IMG/VR virus record: IMGVR_UViG_3300044630_007023
Location: 1-46,270 of that record
Length of the DNA stretch: 46,270 nt
Source: a virus
Strand: one strand, 5' to 3'
How positions within the stretch are numbered: position 1 is the stretch's first letter; each line of letters begins with the position of its first letter. The notes beneath the pieces were generated by a model. It saw nothing but the letters and a program-made list of their open reading frames with translations, searched no databases and was not told the DNA's origin. Shown here in pieces: positions 5,022 through 30,780 of the stretch. Made by a program: the position numbers and the translations under genes.

Positions 5022-5037
5022 AAATATTTATTTGTAA

Positions 5038-5085: not shown

Positions 5086-5105
5086 CACAAAAGATATATA
5101 CACGC

Positions 5106-7662: not shown

Positions 7663-10600
7663 ATGGCAACAGTAACAATTTATCTTAGAAATGATCTAGG
7701 AAGGGCGCTTTCCTACGCGGAGCTTGACGCTAACTTCAAGAATATTAAAGACACGATCGAAAATCTCGGTATCGATGATTTAACGGATGTGGTTATATTA
7801 AGTCCCCAGAATGGGGATATCCTTGTTTATGATACCACCATAAATCAGTGGGTAAATACACAAAATCTACAAGGTTCATATGTTTTAAACCAGTTAGCTG
7901 TAACTGGAATGACCCAAAATAATTCACCATCTTATTTCGTATCCTACGATGAGACAACAGGTGAGTTTGGTTTTAGTCCGATGCCTTTGGCGGGGACTTC
8001 AGGTTCATCTGGTGTTAGTGCCACGGGTGCTAACTACTATGGTTCATTCAGTGATTCAACAACACAAGTTGTTTCTGCGGCAAACACACCAACTGAGATT
8101 ACTTATAACACAACCGAAATTTCTAATCATATTAGTGTTGTAAACAATTCACAAATAAAATTTGATTATACTGGTGTATATGAGATAGGTTACTCTTTAC
8201 AAGTTGAAAAAACGCAAGGTGGTTCGGCAAATGATGTACATATTTTTCTTAGAAAAAATGGTACTGACATTGTTAGAACAGACTCAATTTTAGGTTTAAA
8301 CTCAAATTCAGTTAAACAATTACCATTTGTTTCGGTAATATTGGATTTAAACGCCAACGACTATATTGAGGTTTTATTCGCCTCTGCTTCCAATCACGTA
8401 CAAATAACAGCTGTTCCAGCTAGTGTATCACCGTTGGATCACCCAGCAGCCCCATCAATAATCGTTGTTGCCAAACAAATAGGTTTATTATTACAAGGTG
8501 ATTCTGGTCACTCAGGCTCTTCTGGGACTTCTGGATCTGCTGGTACAAGCGGTTCTACTGGTACTGATGGTACTTCAGGTTTAAGTGGTAGTAATGGTTC
8601 TTCAGGTATTTCAGGTTCATCTGGTGAAGATGGATCTTCAGGAACAAGTGGAGAAAGCGGTTCTAACGGGTCTTCGGGTATTTCAGGTTCATCTGGTCAA
8701 GATGGTTCTTCAGGTGTAAGTGGTTCTTCTGGTTCTGACGGTAGCTCAGGAACATCTGGTTCTTCAGGTATTGACGGTGCTAGTGGTATTTCAGGTATTT
8801 CAGGAACAAGCGGTTCTGATGGTATTTCTGGTACGTCAGGTCAATCAGGTTCTAATGGTTCATCTGGTGTAAGTGGTGAAAGTGGTTCTGATGGTTCTTC
8901 AGGTATAAGTGGTGTAAGCGGTTCCGATGGTTCTTCAGGAACTTCAGGTATAAGTGGGTCGGATGGATCTTCTGGAGTATCTGGTGCTTCAGGTTCTGAT
9001 GGTTCTTCAGGTATAAGTGGTGTAAGCGGTTCAGATGGTTCTTCAGGTATAAGTGGTTCTTCTGGTTCAGATGGTTCTTCAGGTATAAGTGGTTCTTCTG
9101 GTTCAAATGGTTTATCTGGTGCTTCAGGTTCTTCTGGATCTGATGGTTCTTCAGGTATAAGTGGTGAGTCAGGTACATCGGGTTCTTCTGGTAGTTCAGG
9201 GGAGTCTGGATCTGATGGTTCTTCAGGTATAAGTGGTGTAAGCGGTTCCGATGGTTCTTCAGGATCAAGCGGTCTAGATGGTGTTAACGGTGTTAGTGGG
9301 GTATCAGGATCATCGGGAACAAGTGGTTTCTCTGGTGTTGATGGTACCGCTGGTACAAGTGGTAATAGTGGTTCTGATGGTTCTTCAGGAACTTCAGGTA
9401 TAAGTGGGTCGGATGGGTCTTCGGGGCTATCTGGTTCTTCAGGTAGTGATGGATCTTCGGGGGTATCTGGGTCTTCAGGTTCCGATGGATCTTCTGGTAT
9501 TTCTGGGTCTTCAGGATCAGATGGTTCTTCTGGTTTAAGCGGATCTTCTGGTAGTAACGGTTCTTCAGGGACAAGTGGTTCTTCAGGTATTGATGGTGCT
9601 AGTGGTATTTCTGGCGTTTCAGGGACAAGTGGTTCTGATGGATCTTCAGGTGTTTCAGGTGAATCTGGGTCGGACGGATCTTCAGGAACAAGCGGTGAAT
9701 CTGGTTCTAATGGTTCATCAGGTGTTTCTGGTCAATCTGGATCAACTGGATCAAATGGTTCTTCTGGTAACAGTGGATCTTCTGGATCTGACGGTTCTTC
9801 TGGTAACAGTGGATCTTCTGGATCGAATGGTTCATCTGGAACAAGTGGCGAAAGCGGTTCAAATGGTAGTTCGGGTATTTCGGGTGAATCTGGATCCGAT
9901 GGTTCTTCAGGAACTTCAGGTATAAGTGGCTCAAATGGGTCGAGTGGTGAGTCTGGCCAATCAGGATCAGATGGTTCTTCAGGTATGAGTGGTTCATCTG
10001 GATCAAACGGTTCATCTGGCCAATCAGGATCGGATGGTTCTTCAGGTATGAGTGGTTCATCTGGATCAGATGGATCTTCAGGGCTTTCGGGTGTTAATGG
10101 TGTTAGTGGTGTATCGGGATCATCGGGAACAAGTGGTTTCTCTGGTGTTGACGGTACTGCTGGTACGTCTGGTTTAAGTGGTTCTGATGGTTCATCGGGT
10201 GTAAGCGGGTCATCAGGATCAGATGGTTCTTCTGGTTTAAGTGGATCTTCTGGATCTGCTGGTTCATCGGGTATTTCAGGTTCTTCAGGTAGTGATGGAT
10301 CTTCTGGGGTATCTGGTTCATCAGGATCTGACGGATCTGCTGGCCGATCAGGTTCTTCGGGATCAAATGGGTCTTCAGGTATTTCTGGATCATCTGGAAG
10401 CGATGGTTCTTCAGGTTTAAGTGGATTTAGCGGATCAGATGGTAGTTCAGGAACTTCTGGTTTAAGTGGATCAGATGGTAGTTCAGGTATTTCTGGTGTT
10501 TCTGGTTCTGACGGATCTTCGGGTACTTCTGGTACATCAGGTATTGATGGTGCTAGTGGTATTTCTGGTATTTCTGGAACAAGTGGATCGGATGGTTCTT

Positions 10601-13600
10601 CAGGTGTTTCGGGGTCGAATGGATCTTCGGGTGCTTCTGGATCCTCTGGATCTGATGGTTCTTCTGGTAACAGTGGATCTTCTGGATCGAATGGTTCATC
10701 AGGTATTTCGGGTTCATCAGGTAGTGATGGATCTTCAGGAACAAGTGGTGAAAGTGGTTCAAACGGTTCTAGTGGTATAAGTGGCATTTCAGGTAGTGAT
10801 GGATCTTCTGGAACAAGCGGCGAAAGCGGTTCAAATGGTTCTAGTGGTATAAGTGGTATTTCAGGTTCCGATGGGTCTTCAGGATCAAGCGGTGAATCTG
10901 GTTCTTCTGGATCAGATGGTTCTTCTGGTAACAGTGGATCTTCAGGTTCTAACGGTTCTTCTGGTACATCTGGGTCTTCAGGATCAAGCGGTGAGTCTGG
11001 TTCTAATGGTTCTTCAGGTATTTCAGGTGAATCTGGATCATCAGGTAGTGATGGTTCTTCAGGACTTTCGGGTGTTAACGGTGTTAGCGGCGTATCGGGA
11101 TCTTCAGGGACTTCAGGTTTCTCTGGTGTTGACGGTACTGCTGGTACAAGTGGATTGAGTGGTTCCGATGGTTCTTCAGGAACAAGCGGGTTATCTGGTT
11201 CATCTGGATCAGATGGTAGCTCAGGTTTAAGTGGTTCATCAGGTAGCGATGGATCTTCTGGGATATCTGGTTCTTCAGGATCAGACGGTTCTTCAGGAAC
11301 TTCAGGTATAAGTGGTGAAAGTGGTTCATCAGCAAGCTCTGGTTCTTCTGGATCAGACGGATCTTCTGGTACATCTGGTATTTCAGGTAGTGATGGTTCA
11401 AACGGTAGTTCGGGTATTTCTGGATCATCTGGGTCAAACGGTTCTTCAGGGACAAGTGGTTCTTCAGGTATTGATGGTGCTAGTGGTATTTCTGGTGTTT
11501 CAGGAACAAGTGGTTCTGATGGTTCTTCTGGAACAAGTGGCGAAAGCGGTATTTCGGGTTCATCAGGTAGTGATGGATCTTCAGGAACAAGTGGTGAAAG
11601 TGGCTCAAATGGTAGTTCAGGTTTGTCTGGTTCATCTGGTTCTGATGGTTCTTCAGGAACATCTGGTAATAGCGGATCTTCAGCATCTTCAGGAACAAGC
11701 GGTGAAAGCGGTTCAACAGGGTCAAACGGTTCTTCAGGTTTATCTGGTTCATCAGGTAGTGATGGGTCTTCAGGAACAAGCGGTGAAAGCGGATTCTCTG
11801 GTTCTTCAGCAAGTTCAGGTTCATCTGGTTCTGATGGTTCTTCAGGAACATCTGGATTTAGCGGCTCAGCGGGATCAGACGGTTCTTCTGGTACATCTGG
11901 ATTTAGTGGTACAGCTGGTTCATCAGCAAGCTCTGGTTCATCAGGATCTGATGGTTCTTCAGGAACAAGTGGATTGAGTGGTTCTTCAGCATCTTCGGGT
12001 TCTGATGGTTCTTCAGGAACTTCGGGTATAAGTGGCGAAAGCGGTTCATCAGCAAGCTCTGGTTCTTCTGGTAGTGATGGGTCTTCAGGAACATCTGGAT
12101 TTAGTGGTTCAGCTGGTTCATCAGCAAGTTCAGGTTCTTCAGGATCGGATGGTTCATCAGGTGTTTCTGGTCAATCTGGTTCTTCAGGTTCCGATGGTTC
12201 TTCAGGATCAAGCGGCTTGGATGGTGTTAATGGTGTGTCGGGAGTTTCAGGTTCTGACGGTACATCAGGTTTCTCTGGTGTTGATGGTACCGCTGGTACA
12301 AGTGGATTGAGCGGTTCATCTGGCTCTTCTGGATCGGATGGTTCTTCAGGGTCATCAGGTATTTCAGGTGAGTCTGGTTCTTCAGCAAGTTCAGGTTCTT
12401 CAGGTAGTGATGGATCTTCAGGTTTAAGTGGTTCTGCTGGTTCTTCAGCGTCTTCAGGATCTTCGGGTTCTGATGGTTCATCTGGAACAAGTGGATTGAG
12501 TGGGTCTTCAGCAACTTCTGGTACATCAGGTTCTTCAGCTAGTTCTGGATCGGATGGTAGTTCAGGTACAAGTGGTATCTCAGGTGAGTCTGGGTCTTCA
12601 GCGTCTTCTGGTTCATCAGGATCTGATGGTTCTTCAGGATTGAGTGGGTCTTCTGGTAGTTCAGCATCTTCAGGTTCATCTGGATCTGATGGTTCTTCAG
12701 GAACATCAGGTATAAGTGGTTCAGCTGGTTCATCGGCATCTTCAGGCGTAAGTGGTTCATCTGGATCTGATGGTAGTTCAGGTGTAAGCGGATCATCGGG
12801 TAGTGATGGTTCTTCAGGTACTTCTGGTACATCAGGTATTGATGGTGCCAGTGGTATAAGTGGTATTTCAGGAACAAGCGGTTCTGATGGTTCTTCTGGA
12901 ACAAGCGGTGAAAGCGGTAGTGATGGTTCTTCAGGCACAAGTGGTTTAAGTGGTTCTTCAGCATCTTCGGGTTCTGATGGTTCTTCAGGAACATCAGGAT
13001 TTAGTGGTTCATCAGCATCTTCTGGTTCTTCAGGTTTAAGTGGTTCATCGGGCAGTGATGGATCTTCAGGTACAAGTGGTGAAAGTGGATTTAGTGGTTC
13101 ATCAGCATCTTCTGGTTCTTCGGGGTCAGATGGTTCTTCAGGAACAAGTGGTATATCTGGATTCTCTGGTTCTTCAGCATCTTCTGGTTCTTCGGGGTCA
13201 GATGGTTCTTCAGGAACAAGTGGTGAAAGTGGATCTTCAGGTAGTGATGGTTCTTCAGGTATAAGTGGTTCTTCTGGTTCTTCAGCAAGTTCAGGTTCTT
13301 CAGGATCGGATGGTTCTTCAGGTACGTCTGGATTTAGTGGCTCTTCAGCAAGTTCAGGTACTTCTGGTTCATCAGCCTCTTCTGGTAGTGATGGGTCTTC
13401 AGGAACATCTGGTATTTCAGGTGAGTCTGGCTCTTCAGCATCTTCAGGATCAAGCGGTTCAGATGGTTCTTCGGGTACAAGCGGTGAAAGTGGTTTAAGT
13501 GGCTCTTCAGCATCTTCAGGATCAAGCGGTTCTGATGGTTCTTCGGGTATTTCTGGATCTTCAGCATCTTCAGGTTCATCAGGTAGTGATGGATCTTCTG

Positions 13601-16600
13601 GAACAAGTGGTAATAGTGGCTCTTCAGCATCTTCAGGAACATCAGGATTTAGTGGATCGGATGGTTCTTCTGGTACTTCTGGATTTAGCGGTAGTGATGG
13701 ATCAAACGGTTCTTCAGGTATAAGCGGTTCTTCTGGTTCTTCAGCATCTTCAGGTTCATCTGGATCTGACGGTTCTTCGGGAACTTCAGGTTTAAGTGGA
13801 TCATCAGCATCCTCAGGAACTTCAGGTTCTTCTGGTTCTGAGGGTTCTTCAGGAACTTCAGGTATAAGTGGTTTATCTGGTTCTTCAGCGTCATCTGGTT
13901 CATCAGGAAGCGATGGTTCTTCGGGAACAAGTGGCGAAAGTGGTTCATCTGCTTCTTCAGGTACATCTGGATCTAGTGGTTCAAGCGCATCTTCTGGTAT
14001 AAGCGGATCATCAGGTTCTGACGGTTCTTCAGGTATTAGCGGTTCATCTGGTTCCGATGGTTCTTCAGGATCAAGCGGTCTAGATGGTGTTAACGGTGTT
14101 AGTGGTGTTAGTGGTAGTGATGGTACATCAGGTTTCTCTGGTGTTGATGGTACTGCTGGTACGTCTGGTTTAAGTGGTTCTGATGGATCATCAGGTTCTT
14201 CTGGTTCAAGTGGATCGGACGGATCATCTGGATCTAGCGGATCATCAGGTTCTTCAGGAACAAGCGGATCGTCAGCATCTAGTGGTTCTTCAGCAACTTC
14301 TGGAACATCTGGTTCTTCAGGAACAAGCGGATCATCAGCAACTTCTGGTACATCAGGTTCTTCAGGAACAAGCGGATCATCTGCATCTAGTGGTTCTTCA
14401 GCAACTTCTGGTACATCAGGTTCTGCTGGTACATCAGGTTCTTCGGCATCTGCTGGAACAGCTGGATCATCTGGTACTTCAGGTTCTTCAGCAACTTCTG
14501 GTACATCAGGTTCTTCAGGAACAAGCGGATCATCTGCATCTGCTGGAACATCTGGTTCATCTGGAACAAGTGGTTCAACTGGTACATCAGGTTCTTCTGG
14601 TTTATCAAGTTCATCAGCGTTAAGCGGTACATCGGGTTCTTCAGGATCTTCGGGATCCGCTGGTACATCAGGTTTATCAGGGTTTGGTTGTTATACTTTA
14701 CCTTACATTTGGGGCTTTGATCCAGATGTACCTGCCAATGGTGAAATAATTAGCCAAAATGGTTCATTAGGTACTTTTGTAACTAGCTTTAAGATAAGTG
14801 ACATCGATGTTAATGGTATAGATCGTGATTTATTATTAGATGCGATTTCAGTTGGTTCTCAAATAACAATTAACGGTTATGTTTATACTGTATCATCTAA
14901 TGTAGATTCTGGAAGTTACCACACATTTAATGTGTCGTTTGTAGAGGGTCCTTTGGATGCATCACCAGCACCAGGAACACCTACAACATTATATTTCTGT
15001 GCAAGTTTAGGTAGCGGTTCTTCTGGTACTTCAGGTTCTTCTGGTACTTCAGGTACATCAGGAACATCAGGTTCTTCTGGTTTAAGTTCATCTTCAGGAA
15101 CAAGTGGTTCATCTGCAACTTCAGGAACATCGGGTTCATCTGGTAGCTCAGCAACTTCTGGTACATCAGGTTCATCAGGAACAAGCGGATCATCAGCAAC
15201 TTCTGGTACATCAGGTTCATCTGCAACTTCAGGGACAAGTGGTTCTTCAGGAACAAGTGGATCATCAGCATCATCTGGTACATCAGGTTCATCAGGTTCT
15301 AGTACAAGTTCTGGAACATCTGGTTCATCAGGAACAAGTGGTAGTACGGGTACAGCTGGTTCATCTGGTTTATCAAGTTCATCAGCATTGAGTGGTACAT
15401 CAGGTTCATCAGGTTCATCAGGTTCCGCTGGAACATCTGGTTTATCAGGCTTTGGTTGTTTCTCATTATCTTACATTTGGGGATTTGACCTAGACGTACC
15501 TGCCAATGGTGAAATAGTTAGCCAAAATGGTTCACTGGGTAGTTTTGTTACAAGTATTAAAGTAAGCGATATTGATGTTAATGGTATAAATCGTGACGCG
15601 ATATTAGACGCACTATCAATCGGATCTCAAATAACAATTAATGGTTATGTTTATACTGTATCATCTAATGTGGATTCTGGTAGTCATCATACATTTAACG
15701 TATCATATGTTTCAGGACCAGCAGACGCGTCACCAGCACCAGGAACACCTACAACATTAGAACTTTGTGTTTCTTTAGGTAGTGGTTCTTCTGGTTCGTC
15801 AGGTTCTTCTGGTACTTCAGGAACTTCTGGTTCGTCAGGTTCTTCTGGTACTTCGGGCGTAGCTGGTTTATCTGGTTTATCTAGATCTTCTGGTACATCA
15901 GGTTCTTCTGGAACTTCTGGTAGCTCAGGAACTTCTGGTAGCTCAGCATCTTCTGGAACTTCTGGTAGCTCTGGAACTTCTGGTAGCTCAGCATCTTCGG
16001 GAACATCAGCATCTTCAGGTACAAGCGGTTCTAGTGGGTCAACTGGTACAAACGGTACCGCTGGTCAATCAGCGCTTTCTAGATCTTCAGGAACTTCAGG
16101 TTCATCTGGAACATCTGGTACAACTGGTATTGATGGTGTTAGTGGTGTAAATGGTACTAGTGGTTTATCTGGTACATCTGGTTCAACTGGTACAAACGGT
16201 ACATCAGGGGTATCAGCATCTTCAGGAACAAGTGGTTCTTCAGGTTCTTCAGCATCTTCTGGAACTTCAGGGTTAAGCGGATCAAGTGGTTCTTCCGCTT
16301 CATCTGGTAGCACTGGTTCTGCTGGTACAAGTGGTAATTCATTATCTTCAGGAACTTCAGGTTCATCTGGAACAAGTGGTTCTTCAGCAACAAGTGGTAC
16401 ATCAGGTTCATCTGCTCTAAGCGCAAGCTCAGGGACATCTGGATCTAGTGGTTCAACTGGTACTAACGGTACGATTGGTTCTTCTTCATTAAGCGCATCT
16501 TCGGGTACATCTGGTTCTTCAGGAACAAGTGGTACAACAGGTTTAGCTGGTGATAATGGTGAAAGTAAGGTATCTGCTACCTCTGGTACAAGTGGTACTT

Positions 16601-18204: not shown

Positions 18205-18238
18205 TCCATAATTATCGGAGTTTTTTAAGGAAAAAATA

Positions 18239-18246
18239 TATTTATA
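18239..18246 (+). promoter_or_regulatory. Putative late promoter motif TATTTATA
   Basis: ATATATTTATAGATAAG lies 26 bases before the ATG of fibre 2. An AAGGA sequence about seven bases before the start codon is one of the few Shine-Dalgarno-like sites in the window. Confidence 0.4.
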
Positions 18247-18272
18247 GATAAGTAATAATTTAAGGAAGCAAA

Positions 18273-21200
18273 ATGGCAAACGAACATATTATAAGAAGTG
18301 GTATTTTTGGAAAGAATGTTGATGAGAACACATCCCCATCGCATTACATTTCATTTGACCCAGCATCGGGGGAATTCACCTACACATCATTAACATCAGG
18401 AACATCGGGTACCGCGGGAACATCAGGGGTTTCTGGTATAAGTGGTACTTCGGGATCTTCCGCGTCTTCAGGGACATCTGGGACCACTGGTGGTAGTGGT
18501 TCAAGTAAAACAAGTGGCTCATCAGGTACAAGCGGTTCTTCAGGAACCGATGGTCAATCTGGGTTATCCAGATCTTCAGGTACATCTGGATCTTCTGGTA
18601 GCACAGGTACGGCTGGTACAATAGGTGCTTCAGCTTTAAGCGCATCTTCAGGAACAAGTGGTTCTAGTGGATCAACTGGTACGGCTGGTGCGTCAGGTGG
18701 TAGTAATTCTTCAGGAACATCTGGATCTTCAGGATCGACTGGTTCTGCTGGTACAGCTGGCTCTTCAAATGTGTCCGCTTCTTCAGGTACAAGTGGATCT
18801 TCAGGATCGACTGGTACATCTGGTTCTGCTGGTTTAAGTTCATCAAGTGGTTCTTCAGCAACTTCAGGTACATCAGGATCAACTGGTACATCTGGTTCTG
18901 CTGGTTTAGCTGGTAGCTCAGCATCTTCAGGAACAAGTGGTTCATCTGGTAGTACTGGTACAAGTGGTACAGCAGGTGCATCAGCGTTGTCTGGCTCAGC
19001 GGGTTCTTCCGCATCTTCAGGTTCTTCTGGTTCTTCAGGTACAGAAGGTTCTTCAGGTAGATCAGCCGCTTCAGGTTCTTCAGGAACTTCAGGTTCTTCA
19101 GGATCAACGGGTACAGCTGGTTCTTCTGGTTTGGCTAACTCATCGGGTTCTTCAGGTACATCTGGTAGTTCTGGTACAAGTGGTAGTGATGGTAATAGCG
19201 GATTGAGTAAATCTTCAGGAACGTCTGGATCAAGCGGTAGTACGGGTACAGCTGGTACAGATGGTCAATCTGGTTTATCTAGATCTTCAGGTACGTCTGG
19301 TTCTAGTGGATCAACTGGTACTTCAGGTTCATCGGCTTTAAGTGGTTCTGCGGGTAGTTCAGCAACTTCAGGTACAGCTGGTAGTTCAGGTTCTAATGGT
19401 TCTTCGGGTGCATCAGCATCTTCAGGTACATCGGGTTCATCTGGGTCTTCAGCATCTTCAGGTACATCAGGTTCAAGCGCATCTTCAGGAACAAGTGGTT
19501 CATCAGGTTTAAGTGCTAATTCTGGAAGCTCCGCAACTTCAGGTTCATCGGCTACTTCAGGTACAACTGGTACTTCAGGTAGATCAGGTGATTCGGCTTC
19601 AAGTGGATCTTCAGGTTCATCAGCAACTTCGGGTACTGCTGGTAGTTCAGGTTCTGCTGGTAGTACTGGTACTTCAGGTAGTTCAGGTTTAAGCGCATCT
19701 AGTGGTTCTTCAGCAACTTCAGGTACATCTGGTTCAACTGGTACAACTGGTACAAGCGGTAACGCTGGTGCTAGTGGTTTATCAAGATCTTCAGGTACAA
19801 GTGGATCTTCTGGATCTACTGGTACTTCAGGTACAGATGGTAATTCTGGATTGAGTAAATCTTCGGGAACTTCTGGTTCTTCAGGAACAAGTGGTTCTGC
19901 TGGTACAGATGGTCAATCGGGTTTATCAAGATCTTCAGGTACATCTGGGTCATCTGGAAGTACGGGTACAAATGGTACAAATGGTCAATCTGGTAATAGT
20001 AGTTCTTCTGCTACTTCAGGTACATCTGGTTCTAGCGGTTCATCGGGTACAGAGGGTAGTTCGGGTAGATCGGCAGCCTCTGGTTCATCAGCAACTTCAG
20101 GAACAAGTGGTTCTTCAGGTTCGGCTGGTTCATCAGGAACATCAGGTTCTTCGGGGTTAGCTGGCTCTTCAGCATCTTCAGGTACATCTGGTTCTGCTGG
20201 TTCTACTGGTACATCAGGCTCATCAGCTTTAAGTGGGGCCTCAGCATCTTCAGGTACAAGTGGTTCTAGTGGATCAACTGGTACAAATGGTACTTCAGGT
20301 AATAGTAATAGTTCAGGAACTTCAGGTTCTAGTGGGTCTTCAGCAACTTCTGGTACATCTGGTAGTTCTGGGTCTTCAGGTACAAGTGGTTCTAGTGCAA
20401 ATAGTGGATCAAGTGGATCGTCAGCGACTTCAGGTACGTCAGGTTCAACTGGTTCTAACGGTAGTTCAGGTGCTTCTGGTAATAGTGGTTCTTCAGCGAC
20501 AAGCGGAAGCTCAGCAACTTCAGGAACAAGTGGTTCTGCTGGTAGTTCAGCATTAAGTGGTTCTGCTGGTAGTTCAGGTACCTCAGCAACAAGCGGAACA
20601 GCTGGTAGCTCAGGTTTATCGGCTTCATCTGGTTCAAGTGCATCTTCTGGATCAACTGGTACTTCAGGTAGTTCAGGTTTAAGTTCATCAAGTGGTTCTT
20701 CAGCAACTTCGGGTACATCAGGATCAACTGGTTCTAATGGTACATCAGGTGTTGCTGGTAATAGTGGTTTGAGTAGAACAAGCGGAACTTCAGGTTCTTC
20801 GGGAACATCTGGGTCTGCTGGTACAGATGGTAACTCTGGGTTGAGTAAGTCTTCGGGAACATCTGGATCATCAGGTACTTCAGGTTCTGCTGGTACAGAT
20901 GGTCAATCTGGTTTATCAAGATCTTCAGGTACAAGTGGTTCTTCAGGATCGACTGGTACAAATGGTACTTCAGGTGCATCGGCATCCTCAGGTACATCTG
21001 GTTCGGCTGGTTCATCAGCAACAAGCGGAACTTCAGGTTCAGCGGGTAGTTCAGCAACTTCTGGTTCTTCAGGCGCGTCAGCATCTTCAGCAACCTCAGG
21101 AACTTCAGGTTCTTCAGGTTCTTCTGGTTCAGCTGGTTCTTCAGGGTTGAGTGCTTCTTCGGGTAGTTCGGCAACTTCTGGAACAGCTGGTTCAACTGGT

Positions 21201-24200
21201 ACGAATGGTTCTTCAGGTGCGTCAGCTTCTTCAGGAACATCGGCAAGCTCTGGTTCATCAGCATCTTCAGGTACATCTGGCTCTTCAGGTTTAAGTGCGG
21301 CTAGTGGTTCAAGTGGTTCTTCGGCGAGTTCAGGAACTTCTGGTTCAGCTGGTTCGAATGGTACGAGTGGTAATGCTGGTAATAGTGGTTTGAGTAGAAC
21401 AAGCGGAACTTCAGGTTCAGCTGGTTCATCAGGAACAGAAGGTTCATCAGGTAGATCTGCTGCTTCTGGTTCTTCAGGAACGAGCGGGTCAAGTGCATCT
21501 TCAGGTACATCTGGATCTTCGGGTTCAAGTGCATCTTCAGGTACATCTGGATCTTCTGGTGCTTCGGCTTCTTCAGCAACTTCAGGTACATCTGGGTCAT
21601 CCGCTTCTAGTGGCACTTCAGGTAGTGCTGGTAGTGCTGGTTTATCGGCTTCTTCAGGTAGTTCAGCAACTTCTGGAACTTCGGGATCAACTGGTACTTC
21701 GGGTAGTTCTGGGTTGAGTTCATCTTCAGGTTCTTCAGCAACAAGTGGAACATCAGGATCAACTGGTACGACTGGTACTTCAGGTGTAGCTGGTGGTTCT
21801 GGTTTATCTAGAACTTCAGGAACTTCTGGATCTAGCGGATCAACGGGTACAGCGGGTACAGATGGCCAATCTGGTTTATCTAGATCTTCAGGTACAAGTG
21901 GTTCTTCAGGATCAACTGGTTCTGCTGGTACCGATGGTAACTCTGGTTTAAGTAGATCTTCAGGGTCTTCTGGTACATCAGGTTCTTCTGGTAGTACTGG
22001 TACAAGTGGTTCTAGTGCAAATAGTGGTTCAAGTGGATCGGCTGGTACTTCAGCAACCTCAGGAACTTCAGGTTCTTCTGGTTCAAGTGCAAGTTCTGGT
22101 ACTGCTGGTTCTTCAGGTAATAGTAATAGTTCAGGAACTTCAGGTTCTTCAGGTAGCTCAGCAACGAGTGGTACAAGTGGGTCTAGTGGATCTAATGGTA
22201 CTTCAGGTTTGAGTGCAAATAGTGGTTCATCAGCAACAAGTGGAACTTCGGGTTCTGCTGGTAGTACTGGTTCTAACGGAACAAGTGGTAACTCTGGTAA
22301 TAGTGGTTCTTCAGCAACAAGTGGAACTTCGGGTTCTGCTGGTAGTACTGGTACTTCGGGTAGTTCTGGGTTGAGTTCATCTTCAGGTTCTTCAGCAACA
22401 AGTGGAACATCAGGATCAACTGGTTCTAACGGTACAGCTGGGGCTGCTGGTAATAGTGGTTTATCAGCAACTTCAGGTACATCTGGTTCTAGTGGATCAA
22501 CGGGTTCAACTGGTACTTCAGGTGTGGCTGGTGGTTCTGGTTTATCAAGAACTTCTGGAACATCAGGTTCTTCAGGAACTTCTGGTTCTAATGGTACCGA
22601 TGGTAATAGTGGATTATCTAGAACTTCAGGTACAAGTGGTTCATCTGGTTCTGCTGGTACTGATGGTAACTCTGGTTTGAGCAGATCTTCAGGAACTTCA
22701 GGAACCTCTGGGTCTTCAGGATCAACAGGTACAAGCGGTTCTAGTGCAAATAGTGGATCATCAGCTTCTTCTGGTAGTTCAGCAACTTCAGGAACCTCAG
22801 GATCTTCTGGTTTAAGTTCATCAAGTGGTTCTGCTGGCTCTTCAGGTAGTTCGGCAACTTCTGGTACTTCAGGTTCATCAGCTTCTTCAGGTACATCTGG
22901 CTCTTCAGGTGCGTCAGCATCTTCAGCAACTTCAGGTACATCTGGTTCATCTGGTTCTTCAGGAACAAGTGGTTCATCAGGTTTGAGTGCAAATAGTGGT
23001 TCAGCTGGTTCTTCAGCAACTTCAGGTACATCTGGTTCTACTGGTTCTAACGGTACATCTGGTTTATCAGGTAATAGTGGTTCGTCAGCATCTTCAGCAA
23101 CTTCTGGTACATCAGGATCAACTGGTTCTGCTGGTACTTCTGGTAATGCTGGTAATAGTGGATTATCTAGAACTTCAGGTACAAGTGGATCTTCTGGATC
23201 GACTGGTTCGGCTGGTACAGATGGTAATTCTGGATTGAGTAAATCTTCAGGAACTTCTGGATCAAGCGGATCAACTGGTACTTCAGGTACTGACGGTAAC
23301 TCTGGTTTATCAAAAACTTCAGGAACGTCTGGTTCTTCAGGTTCTTCAGGTACTGACGGTAATAGTGGTTTATCTAGATCTTCAGGAACGTCTGGTAGCT
23401 CAGGATCGACTGGTACTTCAGGGTCATCTGGTCTAAGCGGTTCTTCAGCATCCGCTGGAACATCTGGTTCTTCAGGATCAACTGGTTCTAATGGTTCTTC
23501 AGGTAACGCTGGTAATAGCGGTTCTTCAGCAACTTCAGGTACATCTGGTTCAACAGGTACAAACGGTACGAGTGGTAACGCTGGTAATAGTGGTATATCC
23601 TCTACTTCTGGAACTTCAGGTTCTTCTGGAACAAGTGGTTCTAAAGGTAGTGATGGTACTGCTGGTGTTAGTGGTGCTTCAGCATCTTCAGCAACTTCAG
23701 GTACATCTGGTTCAACAGGCTCTAACGGTACAAATGGCCAATCTGGTCTAAGTGGTTCTGCTGGTTCATCAGCTTCTTCGGGTAGTTCAGCAACTTCAGG
23801 AACTTCTGGTTCATCAGGTTTAAGCGCTAATTCTGGTTCTTCAGCAACTTCAGGTACATCAGGATCAACTGGTTCTAATGGTACATCGGGTGCTTCTGGT
23901 AATAGCGGTTCATCAGGTACTTCGGGATCAACTGGTTCTAACGGTACAAATGGTCAATCTGGTCTAAGTGGTTCTGCTGGTTCTTCAGCATCTTCAGGTA
24001 CTTCTGGTTCTGCTGGTTCTTCAGGAACAAGTGGTAACGCTGGTTTGAGTGGTTTGAGTAGAACAAGTGGAACATCAGGTTCAACTGGTACTTCTGGTTC
24101 TGATGGTAATAGTGGGTTGAGTAAGTCTTCGGGTACAAGTGGATCTTCTGGATCGACTGGTACTGATGGTAACTCTGGTTTAAGTAGATCTTCTGGTACA

Positions 24201-27200
24201 TCAGGTTCATCAGGATCAACTGGTTCTAATGGTACTTCAGGTAACGCTGGTAATAGCGGTTCTTCGGCAACTTCAGGTACATCTGGATCTGCTGGTTCAA
24301 CAGGTTCTAACGGTAGTTCAGGTGCATCTGGTAATAGTGGTTCTTCGGCAACTTCTGGCACATCTGGTTCTACGGGATCAAATGGTACAAATGGTCAGTC
24401 TGGTTTAAGTGGTTCTGCTGGTTCTTCAGCAACAAGTGGTACATCAGGTTCAACTGGTACAACTGGTACAAGCGGTAACGCTGGTTTAAGTGGTTTATCT
24501 AGAACTTCAGGAACTTCAGCTTCTAGTGGATCAACTGGTACTTCAGGTACTGACGGTAATAGTGGTTTAAGCAGATCTTCAGGAACATCAGGTTCTTCAG
24601 GGTCAACAGGTACCGCTGGTAGTGATGGTCAATCTGGTTTGAGTAGATCTTCAGGAACATCAGGTTCTTCAGGGTCAACAGGTACAAACGGTGTAGCGGG
24701 TGTTAGCGGTCTATCTACTACATCAGGTTCTTCTGGATCTTCTGGTACATCGGGTTCTAAAGGTAGTGATGGTACCGCTGGTGTTAGTGGCGCGTCAGCC
24801 TCTTCAGCAACAAGCGGTACATCTGGTTCAACAGGCTCTAATGGTTCAGCGGGTCTTGCAGGTAATAGTGGTTCTTCAGCATCTTCTGGTACATCAGGAT
24901 CAACAGGGTCAACTGGTACTTCAGGTGTAGCTGGTGGCTCTGGTTTATCTAGAACTTCAGGTACAAGTGGTTCATCTGGTACGTCTGGTTCTAACGGTAC
25001 TGATGGTAATAGTGGGTTGAGTAAGTCTTCGGGTACAAGTGGATCTTCTGGATCGACTGGTACTGATGGTAATAGTGGTTTGAGTAGAACAAGTGGTACA
25101 TCAGGTTCATCTGGTTCTGCTGGTACTGATGGTAACTCTGGTTTGAGTAGATCTTCTGGTTCTTCAGGAACATCAGGTTCAAGTGGTTCTTCTGGTACAG
25201 AGGGTTCTTCAGGAAGATCAGCAGCTTCTGGTTCTTCAGCAACTTCAGGAACTTCTGGTTCTTCAGGATCAACTGGTTCTAACGGAACAAGCGGTAACGC
25301 TGGTAATAGTGGGTTATCTTCAACTTCAGGAACTTCTGGTTCTTCAGGATCAACTGGTTCTAATGGTACTTCAGGTAACGCTGGTAATAGCGGTTCTTCG
25401 GCAACAAGCGGAACTTCGGGTTCTGCTGGTTCTAACGGAACAAACGGTGTGGCTGGTAACGGTGGTTTATCCGCTTTAAGTGGTTCTTCAGGTTCTTCAG
25501 GTACAAATGGTTCTAACGGTGTTGCTGGTAATATAGGTGCTTCAGCCTTAAGTGGTTCTTCTGGTTCAACAGGTACTTCAGGTACAAGTGGTAATGCTGG
25601 TTTAAGTGGTTTGAGTAGAACAAGTGGTACATCAGGTTCAACGGGTACAAGTGGTACTGATGGTAATAGTGGTTTGAGTAGATCTTCTGGTTCTTCAGGA
25701 ACATCAGGTTCAAGTGGGTCATCAGGGTCTGAAGGTTCTTCAGGTAGATCAGCAGCTTCTGGTTCTTCAGGAACAAGCGGTTCTTCTGGGTCAGCTGGTT
25801 CTAACGGAACAAGCGGTAACTCTGGTAATAGTGGTTCTTCAGCAACTTCAGGTACATCTGGATCTACGGGTTCTAACGGTACAGCTGGTAACGCTGGTAA
25901 CTCAGGTTTAAGCGCTAATTCTGGATCTTCTGGATCGACTGGTACAAACGGTTCGAATGGTGTTGCAGGTAACAGCGGCGCGTCAGCATTAAGTGGATCT
26001 TCTGGATCAACTGGTACAACTGGTACTTCTGGTAACGCAGGTTTAAGTGGTTTATCTAGAACTTCAGGAACTTCAGGTTCTAGTGGTTCAACTGGTACAA
26101 ACGGTACGGACGGATCTTCGTCTTTGAGTAGAAGTTCAGGAACTTCAGGTTCATCAGGTTCAACGGGTTCTGCTGGTACTTCAGGTATGAGTATGGCTCC
26201 AGGTGCCTCAGGTGCTTCAGGTTCATCAGGTTCTTCAGGAACAGCTGGTTCTAATGGTGCGGCTGGCAACAATGGTGCGAGCGGTGCTTCAGGTTCATCA
26301 GGTTCAACGGGTTCTGCTGGTACTTCAGGTATGAGTATGGCTCCAGGTGCCTCAGGTGCTTCAGGTTCATCAGGTTCTTCAGGAACAGCTGGTTCTAATG
26401 GTAGTTCGGGTAACGCTGGTAACAGTGGTTTATCAGCGGTAAGCGGATCTTCAGGATCAACTGGTACAAATGGTTCTAATGGTGTTGCTGGTAATAATGG
26501 TGCTTCAGCGGTAAGCGGATCAAGTGGTAGTACGGGTTCTAATGGTACATCTGGTAATTCTGGTGTTGCTGGTAACTCAGGTTTATCAAGAACTTCGGGA
26601 ACCTCAGGTTCTTCAGGTTCTAACGGTTCTAACGGTATTGATGGTGCTTCGGCGTTATCAAGAACTTCAGGAACAAGTGGTTCATCTGGTTCTAACGGTG
26701 TTGCTGGTAACAGTGGTGCTTCGGCTAATTCAGGTTCATCTGGATCAACTGGTACCGCAGGTACAAGTGGTTTACCTGTACCTTCAGGAACATCAACAGT
26801 TTCAGGTTCTTCAGGTTCTTCAGGTACAAATGGTTCTAATGGTGTTGCTGGTAATATAGGTGCTTCAGCATTGTCAGGTTCTTCAGGGTCAACTGGTTCT
26901 AATGGTACTTCAGGTAACAACGGTAATAGCGGTAACTCTGGTGTATCAGGTATATCAGGTTCTTCGGGGTCAACTGGTACAAACGGTACAATTGGTATGA
27001 ATGGTAACGCTGGTGCTTCAGCATTAAGTGGTTCTTCAGGATCAACTGGTACAAATGGTAGTTCGGGTAACGCTGGTAACAGTGGTTTGAGTGCTAATTC
27101 AGGTTCTTCTGGATCAACTGGTACAACTGGTACTGGTGGTGTTGCTGGATTAAACGGTATAAGCGCAGCATCTGGTTCTTCAGGTTCATCGGGTACGGCT

Positions 27201-29321
27201 GGTTTAAGCGGTGGTAATGGTTCTAACGGTACTTCAGGTGTTAGTGGAAATAGTGGATCAACTGGTTCTAACGGAACAAGTGGTAACAACGGTAATAACG
27301 GTGCTAGTGGTGTAAGTGGTGTATCTGGTTCTAACGGATCTAACGGTACAAACGGTGTTGCTGGTAACAGTGGTAACAGTGGTTTGAGTGGTATATCGGG
27401 TTCTAATGGTTCTAACGGTACTAACGGTGTTAATGGTAACAACGGTGGAAGTGGTTTATCTGGTTTATCTGGGTCAAACGGATCTTCAGGGACAACTGGT
27501 ACTTCTGGTGTGGCTGGTGGTTCTGGTTTATCTAGAACTTCAGGTGTATCTGGTTCTTCAGGATCAACTGGTACTGATGGTACTTCAGGTGTTAATGGTG
27601 TATCTGGACCTTCAAGGGTATCTGGTACATCTGGTACGTCTGGATCTAACGGTACTTCAGGTAACAACGGTAATAACGGTAACAGTGGTTTAAGTGGTGT
27701 ATCTGGATCTAATGGTTCTAATGGAACAAATGGTGTTAATGGTAACAGCGGTAACTCTGGTTTGAGTGGTATATCAGGTTCTAACGGATCTAACGGTACT
27801 AACGGAAACAACGGTAATAATGGGGTTTCAGGTGCAAGTGGTGCTTCAGGTTCTTCAGGATCAACTGGTTCTGCTGGTACTTCAGGTATGAGTATGGCTC
27901 CAGGTGCCTCGGGTGCCTCTGGTTCTTCTGGATCAACTGGTACAAGTGGTACTAAGGGTAATGATGGTACATCAGGTTTAAGTGGTTCTAACGGATCTTC
28001 TGGTACGGCTGGTGTTTCAGGTAACAGTGGTGTTTCAGGGGTATCAGGTATATCTGGATCTAACGGTTCTAACGGTACAAACGGGGTTTCTGGTAACAGC
28101 GGTAACTCTGGTGTATCAGGTATATCTGGGTCTAACGGTTCAAATGGTACTTCAGGTAACAATGGTGTTGCTGGTAACAGCGGTTTAAGTAGAACAAGTG
28201 GTTCTTCTGGTTCTTCAGGTACAAGTGGTAACGATGGTGTTGGGGGTCTTAGTGCTTTAAGTAGAACAAGTGGTTCATCTGGTTCTTCTGGTACTAACGG
28301 TACAACTGGTAACTCTGGTATTTCAGCTGGTGCTGGTGCTACATTTGGTAGTGGTTCTTCAGGTTCTTCGGGGTCAACGGGTACTGCTGGTACAACTGGT
28401 GCATCTGGTATCTCTGGTTTAAGTGGTGTAAGTGGTCTATCTGGATCAACTGGATCTAACGGAACAAGTGGTAATAACGGTGTAAGTGGTGTGAGTGGGG
28501 TCTCAGGTTCTGCTGGTACAACAGGTACTGGTGGTGTGTCTGGTCTTTCTCGTACAGGTGGAACAAGTGGTTTATCAGCAACTTCAGGTACAAACGGTAC
28601 TTCTGGTGCGGGTACTTCGGGTGTTGGTCAAAACGGTACTTCTGGTGCTAACGGTACTAATGGTACATCAGGTGCGTCTGGTTTATCAAGAACATCTGGT
28701 ACTAACGGTTCGAGTGGAACAAGTGGTAACGCTGGTAATGCGGGTAACAGCGGTTTATCAAGAACATCTGGAACTTCTGGTTCTTCAGGTGCTAACGGTA
28801 CTAACGGTACAACTGGTGCATCTGGTACAAGCGGTCAATCTATTAACGGTACTTCAGGTATCAGTGGTGGATCGTTCACAAACCAACCTGACTTCTTAGT
28901 TAGAACAACTGGTACAGCAACGGTTCAAAGTGTAAGCTTCTTGAAAGCTGACATAACAAATACTAGACTTGGTATCAATAATAACTCACCTTCATACACG
29001 TTGGATGTTGGTGGTACTATCTACGCGTCTGGTGATGTTGTTGCATACTCTGATCAAAGAGTTAAAGATAATGTTGTGACAATTAGTGATGCCTTAAATA
29101 AAGTAAGAAGTATGAGAGGTGTTAACTATACAAGAAACGACATTGAAGACAAATCATTAAAAATGGGTGTTATCGCGCAAGAAGTTCAAAAAGTTGTTCC
29201 AGAGGTTATCACCATAAGAGAATCTGATGGACACTTAGCGGTTGCTTACGCAAACTTAGTCGGATTACTTATCGAAGCGATAAAAGATCTTGACAAAGAG
29301 ATCCAAGATTTAAAGAAATAA
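18273..29321 (+). CDS. Giant collagen-like tail fibre protein 2 with S74 self-cleaving chaperone (3682 residues)
   Basis: A second huge fibre directly after the first. The N-terminus is short (residues 1-42) and ends in SPSHYISFDPASGEF, homologous to the leader of fibre 1. Residues 43 to about 3530 are Gly-X-Y triplets (Y mostly Ser, X Ser/Thr/Asn/Ala/Leu), with recurrent triplets in which Arg or Lys replaces Gly (GLSRTS, GLSKSS). The C-terminus has a fibre-tip phrase (LGINNNSPSYTLDVGG) followed by a peptidase S74 intramolecular chaperone domain. The catalytic Ser-Lys dyad is visible as YSDQRVKDN, with Ser 3593 and Lys 3598 at the family's five-residue spacing. Self-cleavage before Ser 3593 would release about 90 residues after trimerisation. 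S74 domains are known from phage tailspikes and fibres, which supports a trimeric virion fibre. A terminator follows. Confidence 0.92.
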   Translation: MANEHIIRSGIFGKNVDENTSPSHYISFDPASGEFTYTSLTSGTSGTAGTSGVSGISGTSGSSASSGTSGTTGGSGSSKTSGSSGTSGSSGTDGQSGLSRSSGTSGSSGSTGTAGTIGASALSASSGTSGSSGSTGTAGASGGSNSSGTSGSSGSTGSAGTAGSSNVSASSGTSGSSGSTGTSGSAGLSSSSGSSATSGTSGSTGTSGSAGLAGSSASSGTSGSSGSTGTSGTAGASALSGSAGSSASSGSSGSSGTEGSSGRSAASGSSGTSGSSGSTGTAGSSGLANSSGSSGTSGSSGTSGSDGNSGLSKSSGTSGSSGSTGTAGTDGQSGLSRSSGTSGSSGSTGTSGSSALSGSAGSSATSGTAGSSGSNGSSGASASSGTSGSSGSSASSGTSGSSASSGTSGSSGLSANSGSSATSGSSATSGTTGTSGRSGDSASSGSSGSSATSGTAGSSGSAGSTGTSGSSGLSASSGSSATSGTSGSTGTTGTSGNAGASGLSRSSGTSGSSGSTGTSGTDGNSGLSKSSGTSGSSGTSGSAGTDGQSGLSRSSGTSGSSGSTGTNGTNGQSGNSSSSATSGTSGSSGSSGTEGSSGRSAASGSSATSGTSGSSGSAGSSGTSGSSGLAGSSASSGTSGSAGSTGTSGSSALSGASASSGTSGSSGSTGTNGTSGNSNSSGTSGSSGSSATSGTSGSSGSSGTSGSSANSGSSGSSATSGTSGSTGSNGSSGASGNSGSSATSGSSATSGTSGSAGSSALSGSAGSSGTSATSGTAGSSGLSASSGSSASSGSTGTSGSSGLSSSSGSSATSGTSGSTGSNGTSGVAGNSGLSRTSGTSGSSGTSGSAGTDGNSGLSKSSGTSGSSGTSGSAGTDGQSGLSRSSGTSGSSGSTGTNGTSGASASSGTSGSAGSSATSGTSGSAGSSATSGSSGASASSATSGTSGSSGSSGSAGSSGLSASSGSSATSGTAGSTGTNGSSGASASSGTSASSGSSASSGTSGSSGLSAASGSSGSSASSGTSGSAGSNGTSGNAGNSGLSRTSGTSGSAGSSGTEGSSGRSAASGSSGTSGSSASSGTSGSSGSSASSGTSGSSGASASSATSGTSGSSASSGTSGSAGSAGLSASSGSSATSGTSGSTGTSGSSGLSSSSGSSATSGTSGSTGTTGTSGVAGGSGLSRTSGTSGSSGSTGTAGTDGQSGLSRSSGTSGSSGSTGSAGTDGNSGLSRSSGSSGTSGSSGSTGTSGSSANSGSSGSAGTSATSGTSGSSGSSASSGTAGSSGNSNSSGTSGSSGSSATSGTSGSSGSNGTSGLSANSGSSATSGTSGSAGSTGSNGTSGNSGNSGSSATSGTSGSAGSTGTSGSSGLSSSSGSSATSGTSGSTGSNGTAGAAGNSGLSATSGTSGSSGSTGSTGTSGVAGGSGLSRTSGTSGSSGTSGSNGTDGNSGLSRTSGTSGSSGSAGTDGNSGLSRSSGTSGTSGSSGSTGTSGSSANSGSSASSGSSATSGTSGSSGLSSSSGSAGSSGSSATSGTSGSSASSGTSGSSGASASSATSGTSGSSGSSGTSGSSGLSANSGSAGSSATSGTSGSTGSNGTSGLSGNSGSSASSATSGTSGSTGSAGTSGNAGNSGLSRTSGTSGSSGSTGSAGTDGNSGLSKSSGTSGSSGSTGTSGTDGNSGLSKTSGTSGSSGSSGTDGNSGLSRSSGTSGSSGSTGTSGSSGLSGSSASAGTSGSSGSTGSNGSSGNAGNSGSSATSGTSGSTGTNGTSGNAGNSGISSTSGTSGSSGTSGSKGSDGTAGVSGASASSATSGTSGSTGSNGTNGQSGLSGSAGSSASSGSSATSGTSGSSGLSANSGSSATSGTSGSTGSNGTSGASGNSGSSGTSGSTGSNGTNGQSGLSGSAGSSASSGTSGSAGSSGTSGNAGLSGLSRTSGTSGSTGTSGSDGNSGLSKSSGTSGSSGSTGTDGNSGLSRSSGTSGSSGSTGSNGTSGNAGNSGSSATSGTSGSAGSTGSNGSSGASGNSGSSATSGTSGSTGSNGTNGQSGLSGSAGSSATSGTSGSTGTTGTSGNAGLSGLSRTSGTSASSGSTGTSGTDGNSGLSRSSGTSGSSGSTGTAGSDGQSGLSRSSGTSGSSGSTGTNGVAGVSGLSTTSGSSGSSGTSGSKGSDGTAGVSGASASSATSGTSGSTGSNGSAGLAGNSGSSASSGTSGSTGSTGTSGVAGGSGLSRTSGTSGSSGTSGSNGTDGNSGLSKSSGTSGSSGSTGTDGNSGLSRTSGTSGSSGSAGTDGNSGLSRSSGSSGTSGSSGSSGTEGSSGRSAASGSSATSGTSGSSGSTGSNGTSGNAGNSGLSSTSGTSGSSGSTGSNGTSGNAGNSGSSATSGTSGSAGSNGTNGVAGNGGLSALSGSSGSSGTNGSNGVAGNIGASALSGSSGSTGTSGTSGNAGLSGLSRTSGTSGSTGTSGTDGNSGLSRSSGSSGTSGSSGSSGSEGSSGRSAASGSSGTSGSSGSAGSNGTSGNSGNSGSSATSGTSGSTGSNGTAGNAGNSGLSANSGSSGSTGTNGSNGVAGNSGASALSGSSGSTGTTGTSGNAGLSGLSRTSGTSGSSGSTGTNGTDGSSSLSRSSGTSGSSGSTGSAGTSGMSMAPGASGASGSSGSSGTAGSNGAAGNNGASGASGSSGSTGSAGTSGMSMAPGASGASGSSGSSGTAGSNGSSGNAGNSGLSAVSGSSGSTGTNGSNGVAGNNGASAVSGSSGSTGSNGTSGNSGVAGNSGLSRTSGTSGSSGSNGSNGIDGASALSRTSGTSGSSGSNGVAGNSGASANSGSSGSTGTAGTSGLPVPSGTSTVSGSSGSSGTNGSNGVAGNIGASALSGSSGSTGSNGTSGNNGNSGNSGVSGISGSSGSTGTNGTIGMNGNAGASALSGSSGSTGTNGSSGNAGNSGLSANSGSSGSTGTTGTGGVAGLNGISAASGSSGSSGTAGLSGGNGSNGTSGVSGNSGSTGSNGTSGNNGNNGASGVSGVSGSNGSNGTNGVAGNSGNSGLSGISGSNGSNGTNGVNGNNGGSGLSGLSGSNGSSGTTGTSGVAGGSGLSRTSGVSGSSGSTGTDGTSGVNGVSGPSRVSGTSGTSGSNGTSGNNGNNGNSGLSGVSGSNGSNGTNGVNGNSGNSGLSGISGSNGSNGTNGNNGNNGVSGASGASGSSGSTGSAGTSGMSMAPGASGASGSSGSTGTSGTKGNDGTSGLSGSNGSSGTAGVSGNSGVSGVSGISGSNGSNGTNGVSGNSGNSGVSGISGSNGSNGTSGNNGVAGNSGLSRTSGSSGSSGTSGNDGVGGLSALSRTSGSSGSSGTNGTTGNSGISAGAGATFGSGSSGSSGSTGTAGTTGASGISGLSGVSGLSGSTGSNGTSGNNGVSGVSGVSGSAGTTGTGGVSGLSRTGGTSGLSATSGTNGTSGAGTSGVGQNGTSGANGTNGTSGASGLSRTSGTNGSSGTSGNAGNAGNSGLSRTSGTSGSSGANGTNGTTGASGTSGQSINGTSGISGGSFTNQPDFLVRTTGTATVQSVSFLKADITNTRLGINNNSPSYTLDVGGTIYASGDVVAYSDQRVKDNVVTISDALNKVRSMRGVNYTRNDIEDKSLKMGVIAQEVQKVVPEVITIRESDGHLAVAYANLVGLLIEAIKDLDKEIQDLKK
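18399..28863 (+). repeat. Collagen-like tract of fibre 2
   Basis: Roughly 3490 codons of Gly-X-Y triplets without a globular insert. Recurring modules include DGNSGLS[RK][ST]SGTSG (many copies), GTEGSSGRSAASG or a close variant (near 19040, 20050, 21430, 25200 and 25730) and GMSMAPGASGASG (26184, 26328, 27885). The last third is enriched in Asn (GSNGSNGTNG). Proline is almost absent. Confidence 0.95.
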
Positions 29322-29330
29322 TAAATAAGA

Positions 29331-29349
29331 AAGGGGCCTAAAGCCCCTT
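29331..29349. terminator. Bidirectional Rho-independent terminator between fibre 2 and the glycosylation operon
   Basis: AAGGGGC-CTAAA-GCCCCTT, seven pairs with a five-base loop. It is followed by TTTTTT on the plus strand and flanked by an A/T tract on the other, so it can end both the plus-strand fibre transcript and the minus-strand operon, which stops at 29352. Confidence 0.85.
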
Positions 29350-29351
29350 TT

Positions 29352-30747: not shown

Positions 30748-30749
30748 TA

Positions 30750-30771
30750 CCACTACTTATTATTGTAGTGG
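30750..30771 (-). other. Small hairpin before the glucosaminidase start
   Basis: CCACTAC-8 bases-GTAGTGG, seven pairs, ending just three bases from the start codon at 30747. It sits between a TATATTTG promoter-like site and the start codon, so it would be in the leader and could hide the ribosome-binding region. Confidence 0.4.
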
Positions 30772-30779: not shown

Positions 30780-30780
30780 G

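Follow-up and report, generated by a model that had tools for sequence, protein, structure and literature searches.

The 46,270-base virus record IMGVR_UViG_3300044630_007023 from IMG/VR (the window, meaning this whole stretch of DNA) encodes two very long fibre proteins, fibre 1 (7663-18204, plus strand, 3513 residues) and fibre 2 (18273-29321, plus strand, 3682 residues), both recognized as open frames and studied in translation. A gene for a TibC/AAH-type protein O-glycosyltransferase lies 2 kb from them. The best reading of this arrangement is that the fibres are trimers with Ser-O-glycosylated, segmented collagen-like stalks, to which we assign a probability of about 0.68.

Long Gly-X-Y tracts make up most of both proteins. 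Fibre 1 contains tracts f1a (8497-14688, 2064 residues, with 315 perfect triplets followed by in-phase Ala breaks), f1b (15016-15456, 147 residues) and f1c (15784-17682, 633 residues, with breaks spaced by 7-8 triplets), and fibre 2 contains f2a (18399-28613, 3405 residues, with a non-Gly triplet every 7-8 triplets) and f2b (28626-28841, 72 residues), all on the plus strand. The resulting counts of 2844 residues in fibre 1 and 3477 in fibre 2 agree with the original prediction, made from the letters of the window, of about 2840 and 3490. That prediction had also called the repeats nearly free of Pro and dominated by Ser at the Y position. Both statements were borne out, as Pro occupies 0 of 2844 positions in the fibre 1 tracts and 6 of 3477 in those of fibre 2, and Ser accounts for 78% (f1a), 92% (f1b), 76% (f1c), 70% (f2a) and 63% (f2b) of the Y residues. 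Thr is rare at Y in f1a (Ser:Thr 535:4, or 0.6% Thr) and reaches 8% in fibre 2. The start of fibre 2 matched the Pfam Collagen family (PF01391, E = 1.4e-7, 31.6 bits against a cut-off of 27.2); the appreciable Pro or hydroxyproline at X and Y that is usual in collagen is found in neither fibre.

The Gly-X-Ser/Thr tracts are not due to chance, because the five-triplet Gly-X-Ser/Thr DNA pattern read backwards as a control gave 0 matches across 41 records. Identical 12-residue peptides have 55-60% of their codons in common, compared to 41-44% expected under random synonymous choice, and this codon divergence means that the repeats are old and have been maintained at the protein level. Comparison with fibre 1 of a near relative, the independently assembled 73-kb contig L170 in which 1701 residues of Gly-X-Y run up to the contig end, identified 16 indels, all of which were multiples of 3 residues. 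The ratio of nonsynonymous to synonymous substitution rates (dN/dS) in this comparison was 0.31 in the tract, where the alignment is uncertain, and 0.085 in the N-terminal domain. Codon diversity together with ratios below 1 show selection at the protein level. An antisense open frame of 1177 residues (24629-28162, minus strand) also passes through fibre 2 as a by-product of repeat codon bias, and gene callers may pick it over the fibre gene.

While the predicted Gly-X-Y repeats are present over long distances, Gly is missing at some of the third positions. Gly occupies this position in 94% of triplets in f1a, 82% in f1b and f1c and 84% in fibre 2, with Ala, Arg, Ser, Lys or Asn standing in phase elsewhere, and the longest perfect run is the 945 residues formed by the first 315 triplets of f1a. 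The breaks are regularly spaced. In f2a, 72 of 176 break spacings were 7-8 triplets, compared to a mean of 18.4 and a maximum of 36 in 5000 permutations, which rules out random decay of Gly. Spacings in relatives are mostly exactly 8 triplets (451 spacings of 7-8 versus 81 expected in 15 relatives pooled), and these proteins have in common a 24-residue module that is conserved and contains a single non-Gly triplet. The aligned module begins with [A/N/R/K/Q/S]-[T/L/S]-Ser, Gly-Thr-Ser, Gly-Ser-Ser/Thr and Gly-Ser-Asn/Ser, and continues with Gly-Ser-Ser, Gly-x-Ala, Gly-Asn/Thr-Ser and Gly-Leu/Ala-Ser. The position of the break is constant across lineages while its residue varies, and the Ser preceding the break triplet and the Ser inside it are near-invariant.

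These regular breaks speak against the continuous rods of 0.8-1 µm that the original prediction had calculated for a full triple helix. The extended lengths of the two stalks at 0.286 nm per residue, 813 and 994 nm, are upper bounds only, because Gly is periodically replaced; with this segmentation the fibre would probably consist of short helices linked by joints, not of a single rigid rod. In contrast, LR756501, a phage of 735 kb, has Gly in 100% of its triplets along a stretch of 1275 residues. The collagen-like proteins of this phage, of 2816 and 1664 residues, are encoded in L168 (positions 90001-140000 of the record) at 12897-21344 and 29296-34287 on the minus strand; their tracts are without breaks, and the five-triplet pattern matches 1740 times in the record.

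The transferase gene is located at 30781-32016 on the minus strand. Its product scored 310.2 bits against TIGR04414 (cut-off 200) and matched the structure of TibC (4rap) with E = 1.2e-52, and by these matches it is a member of the TIGR04414/TibC-type Ser O-heptosyltransferase family. In TibC, Asp-110 is catalytic, a Lys, an Arg and a Trp bind the sugar, and Pro-300 is linked to sugar stereoselectivity (PMC4358343). D110, K230, R286 and W305 of TibC are kept in the window enzyme, as are the four Fe-binding Cys residues (C339, C342, C358 and C370), while T226 is replaced by Ser and P300 by Gly; the counterpart of D110 in the window enzyme is D115. TibC modifies Ser, not Thr, in TibA, and isolated synthetic Ser/Gly-rich peptides are also modified (PMC4358343). 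Enzymes of this BAHT family are typically dodecamers that move heptose from ADP-heptose onto Ser. Their typical genetic partner is an autotransporter passenger, whereas in the window it is a Gly-X-Ser (GXS) fibre. The presence 2 kb away of a Ser O-glycosyltransferase family member, which is linked to Ser-rich, Pro-free Gly-X-Y proteins in phages as well as bacteria, strongly favours, on genomic grounds, the earlier proposal that glycosylation stabilizes the chain. The model offered for that proposal was the cuticle collagen of vent worms, in which Thr is galactosylated and the glycan has been proposed to replace the stabilizing role of hydroxyproline. This part of the proposal fits less well, because the enzyme family modifies Ser and the Y residue is Ser, with Thr rare; the worm collagen carries Thr at Y and is modified by animal enzymes, whereas the window combines Ser at Y with a bacterial-type transferase.

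The pairing of this enzyme with Ser-rich fibres recurs in other phages. Eighty phage loci carry the transferase, and pairing was counted at those with at least 9 kb (26 loci) or at least 5 kb (38 loci) of upstream sequence; the records are fragments, the sequences are related and the counts are not independent. Ser-rich, Pro-poor Gly-X-Y was found within 10 kb at 25 of the 26 loci with at least 9 kb, corresponding to 16 of 17 clusters at 95% identity. Of the 38 loci having 5 kb or more upstream, 35 had Ser-rich Gly-X-Y, and this rose to 37 on a whole-contig recheck in which the apparent exceptions L072 and L039 were positive. Two gene orders were observed, convergent in the near relatives of the window, and on the same strand and upstream in others. 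Among 37 capsid-gene records and four GenBank phages, GXS tracts occurred in 7 of the 9 that encode the enzyme versus 4 of the 32 that do not (p = 0.0004), and in three of the four enzyme-free GXS records the tract stands at a contig end. In blind samples, for which contigs were drawn by a Ser-rich or Pro-rich Gly-X-Y DNA pattern and the enzyme was ignored, the enzyme was present in 8 of 34 Ser-rich contigs versus 1 of 36 Pro-rich contigs (p = 0.011). The sole positive of the Pro-rich set, G072, also has 367 matches to the Ser-rich pattern, and its reassignment changed the counts to 9 of 35 Ser-rich versus 0 of 35 Pro-rich-only contigs (p = 0.001). This contig (locus L190) is a 170-kb phage contig carrying the transferase, a 945-residue Pro-rich tract and long Ser-rich Gly-X-Y tracts.

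The enzyme was identified in four GenBank phage records only. Mel-JY01 and LR756501 have Gly-X-Ser/Thr fibres; LR756503 has the same length and the same enzyme match as LR756501 and was left out of the fibre inspection, and the fourth record, LR756504, is considered below. The Gly-X-Ser/Thr fibre frame of Microcystis phage Mel-JY01 (L082, PP395634; 2-3049, plus strand) is unannotated, and a minus-strand 'hypothetical protein' (739-2298) has been called antisense to it. This fibre contains short PPG-type stretches beside its N-terminal Ser/Thr tract.

A similar association was found in methanotrophic bacteria. In Methylobacter, Methylomicrobium and their relatives the enzyme adjoins a small protein that is secreted and carries repeats of the Gly-Thr-Ser type. 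Enzyme subtypes were compared within a single methanotroph family (237 genomes). Each of the eight enzymes of the phage-like subtype (303-327 bits) has, no more than about 1.5 kb away, either a secreted protein of this Gly-Thr-Ser type (seven cases) or a poly-Ser homologue (one case), whereas 0 of 7 enzymes of the canonical subtype (654-663 bits) had a GXS neighbour (p = 0.0012); an autotransporter-like repeat protein stands beside the canonical enzyme in at least five loci. A long branch of the enzyme tree divides the phage and methanotroph sequences from the canonical ones, with the weakly placed L417 as an exception, and the deep joins are weak. The poly-Ser homologue is encoded by Methylomagnum (L415, 11545-11961, minus strand) and is related to the Gly-Thr-Ser secreted protein (E = 1e-14), with a poly-Ser tract where the latter has its Gly-Thr-Ser repeats. 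Comparison of these neighbours shows that Ser is what the enzyme's partners have in common.

The domains beside the stalks were examined by family searches and structure prediction. The N-terminal region of fibre 1 (7663-8016, plus strand) starts with 'RALSYAELDANF...' and then 'NNSPSYFVSYDETTGEFGF', the latter motif appearing again at the start of fibre 2; its only PHROG matches are weak ones to families without an assigned function. Directly 5' of f1a is a predicted TNF/C1q-like jelly-roll domain (8017-8496, plus strand), modelled by AlphaFold2 from four sequences with a predicted local distance difference test score (pLDDT) of 69. Foldseek matches of this model in the PDB included 4-1BBL (E = 1.6e-6), BclA (2z5w and 1wck), ExsF and C1q-like proteins, and the fold is trimeric in these relatives. 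At the other end of the second protein, the fibre 2 C-terminus contains a Peptidase_S74 intramolecular chaperone of endosialidase (29049-29207, plus strand, PF13884, E = 6.9e-15). The TNF/C1q-like domain and the S74 chaperone point to probable trimers. The whole fibre 2 C-terminus also matched the PHROG long tail fibre distal subunit (E = 1.8e-34), so that fibre 2 has a C-terminal fibre module like that of T4-like long tail fibres, with T4-like structural genes nearby. The fibre 1 stalk is interrupted by two inserted non-collagen domains of about 110 residues (14683-15015 and 15451-15783, plus strand), which are 82% identical to each other and have no confident family, and it is followed by a C-terminal domain (17683-18204, plus strand) with a likeness by eye, unaligned, to the end of an LR756501 collagen-like protein.

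From these data we propose that fibres 1 and 2 would serve a T4-like phage as long tail or adhesion fibres, each of them a trimer. Trimerizing domains would assemble the Gly-X-Ser chains, namely the TNF/C1q-like domain before the stalk in fibre 1 and the terminal S74 chaperone in fibre 2. The phage transferase would add a sugar to Ser residues of the nascent chains in the host cytoplasm, chiefly at the Ser-rich Y position, and this sugar may be lengthened or modified further by the neighbouring glycosyltransferases and the NodU-type carbamoyltransferase. Together with its shell of water, the glycan would stiffen and protect the Pro-free chain in place of proline, and each segment of the stalk would consist of 7-8 Gly-X-Y triplets and then one triplet with another residue at the Gly position. 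We favour a collagen-like helix because of the strict Gly period, the indels that keep register and the trimerizing domains. A broader proposal is tentative and, in our judgement, somewhat short of an even chance: that a separate TibC-type subfamily of T4-like phages, huge phages and methanotrophs is dedicated to Gly-X-Ser O-glycosylation, yielding a Pro-free, sugar-stabilized, segmented rod of 24-residue modules with an obligatory non-Gly triplet, and that this is a fibre architecture without earlier description.

Several observations weigh against glycosylated, collagen-like stalks. The 636-kb phage LR756504 (W03; L084, L463-L492) encodes the enzyme (223 bits, on a long branch) and has no Gly-X-Y; a hidden Ser-rich partner was sought piece by piece across the record and no conspicuous Ser-rich tract was found. 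The enzyme of this phage may have another target. In the blind samples, 26 of the 34 Ser-rich Gly-X-Y contigs were without the enzyme, many of them being fragments, and a post-hoc split by X residue placed the enzyme in 9 of 23 G-[S/T]-S contigs versus 0 of 12 G-[other]-S contigs. Shared ancestry inflates both the locus counts (25/26 and 37/38) and the capsid-record count (7/9 versus 4/32). In none of the phages searched did an ADP-heptose synthase domain exceed its cut-off; the host would thus have to supply the donor, or a different sugar would have to be used. The Arg, Lys, Asn and Gln found in phase at the Gly position would locally disrupt a triple helix. As Methylomagnum has poly-Ser in place of Gly-Thr-Ser, the partner of the enzyme need not be collagen-like. 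Finally, the substrate of the glycosyltransferases near the fibres might be lipopolysaccharide, which is what has been proposed in pelagimyophages (PMC7029224). The glycan and the identity of its sugar, the helix and virion presence are inferred from genes and sequences.

The poly-Ser partner also means that a mucin-like stalk has to be weighed, i.e. a glycosylated bottle-brush without a triple helix, in which dense Ser-O-sugars would extend the chain and Gly would be a mere spacer. The absence of Pro and the regular non-Gly triplets, including the charged and amide residues just mentioned, fit such a chain, as does the fact that Ser, not Gly, is common to the enzyme's partners. An AlphaFold2 monomer of five repeat modules, a weak test, likewise gave no fold (pLDDT 35). 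Nevertheless, we consider this explanation unlikely. A bottle-brush does not require a strict three-residue period, yet Gly is unbroken over the 1275 residues in LR756501 and the 315 triplets that open the fibre 1 tract, every indel is in register and trimerizing domains stand beside the stalks. It is also quite unlikely that the stalks are ordinary unglycosylated collagen-like fibres, with lipopolysaccharide, the capsid or some other protein of the virion as the target of the transferase, and the linkage reflecting shared ancestry. Collagen-like proteins of E. coli prophages are known, and one that was studied is not glycosylated and still melts at 42 C (PMC3368898); moreover, glycosyltransferases of the pelagimyophage tail-fibre region have been interpreted as O-antigen modifiers (PMC7029224), three more sugar-related genes are present in the block of the window and the LR756504 enzyme occurs without GXS. 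Against this explanation stands the recurrence of the linkage: it is seen with two or more gene orders and extends to a Microcystis phage, a phage of 735 kb and the chromosomes of bacteria. In addition, the enzyme family acts on protein Ser, and the enzyme is absent from contigs with only Pro-rich Gly-X-Y.

Two further explanations concern the repeats themselves. Polyglycine-II packing is known in the snow-flea antifreeze protein and in gp38 of phage S16, and Gly at every third residue would be compatible with a chain that reverses after each 7-8 triplets and packs its polyproline-II helices compactly or as a ladder; the 24-residue module with its break could be a helix plus a turn. However, the break is in phase and often only Ala, a weak turn signal, 945 residues of fibre 1 are unbroken and the monomer prediction, weak as a test, gave no compact fold. 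We therefore regard such a bundle as improbable. A repeat-expansion or assembly artefact without function is more improbable by far. Short-read assembly of repetitive genes is hard, and no result obtained here favours an artefact; independent contigs have comparable tracts (2517 residues in L003 and 1701 in L170), and the codon diversity and dN/dS below 1 indicate protein-level selection.

Family matches identified, within 17 kb and on the minus strand, genes for a major head protein, a head maturation protease and a portal of T4-like type, and judged by these matches the window is a fragment from a T4-like phage. When its capsid is compared with those of named isolates, phages of Microcystis and of Flavobacterium come closest, and two close relatives of its transferase are on contigs binned with Flavobacteriales. 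The glycosylation block continues on the minus strand beyond the transferase gene with a NodU-type carbamoyltransferase (31997-33625; PF16861, E = 2.3e-59, and PF02543; PHROG 1601), for which decoration of the glycan is a possible role, a GT4-type glycosyltransferase (33622-34569; PF00534, 27.0 bits against a cut-off of 26.4) and a two-domain glycosyltransferase (34579-37329) with a GT4 N-terminal half (PF00534, E = 5.7e-12) and a GT25-like C-terminal end (PF01755, E = 0.0023, below cut-off). Phage-encoded ADP-heptose synthesis was sought as a source of the donor and discarded, as stated above. Between the fibres and this block are a peptidase-like gene (29352-30185, minus strand, PHROG 4191) and a glucosaminidase/endolysin gene (30178-30753, minus strand). 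Just 5' of the fibre genes, on the same plus strand, is a Clp/ClpB-type ATPase gene (4884-7577, matches below family cut-offs), whose product is possibly a chaperone for the fibres. A 2OG-Fe(II) oxygenase is encoded at 3424-4086 (minus strand, PF13640); prolyl hydroxylation by this enzyme as a means of stabilization was ruled out, as the fibres are nearly Pro-free.

The system of the window resembles several known ones in part. Like TibC/AAH BAHT systems (TIGR04414, 4rap), it has an enzyme with whole-length homology, the active-site and Fe-Cys residues and a Ser-rich repeat protein as genetic partner; unlike them, its enzyme type occurs in phages, has a Gly-X-Ser fibre as partner and Gly at P300, and stands with some methanotroph enzymes on a separate branch. 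The EPclA-D proteins of E. coli prophages are also phage fibres with a Gly-X-Y stalk and trimerizing domains, although their longest collagen domain is 322 residues, compared to single tracts of 2064 and 3405 here, and neither periodic breaks nor a dedicated transferase have been described for them; EPclA is the unglycosylated protein mentioned above (PMC3368898). BclA of the Bacillus exosporium is glycosylated (PMC8968730) and, as in fibre 1, has a collagen-like stalk beside a TNF/C1q-like domain. Among bacterial collagen-like proteins, Pro is common at X and Thr at Y (PMC8968730), whereas the fibre 1 tracts are Pro-free with Ser at Y. Fibre 1 also differs from BclA in having its TNF-like domain N-terminal to the stalk and in being far longer. 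Mycobacteriophage virion proteins are glycosylated as well (Freeman et al. 2023, cited in PMC12619734 and PMC11256854). In the parts of these accounts that deal with virion glycosylation, the sugar targets are the C-termini of capsid and tail-tube subunits, with no collagen-like fibre, and no mention of BAHT was found. We found no report in the open-access literature of a TibC-type enzyme together with collagen-like or Gly-X-Ser proteins.

If glycosylated, segmented stalks are indeed what these genes encode, this would explain how very long Pro-free collagen-like chains can be used. It would provide a protein target for phage glycosyltransferases of the tail-fibre region, whose usual interpretation is that they modify DNA or the O antigen, and would extend the reach of the TibC/AAH family beyond autotransporters to collagen-like proteins. 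The 24-residue module raises the structural question of what effect a regular in-phase non-Gly triplet has in a fibre. One short enzyme and a (Gly-Thr-Ser)n protein, as in the methanotrophs, would then constitute a simple test system for glycan-stabilized collagen mimics.

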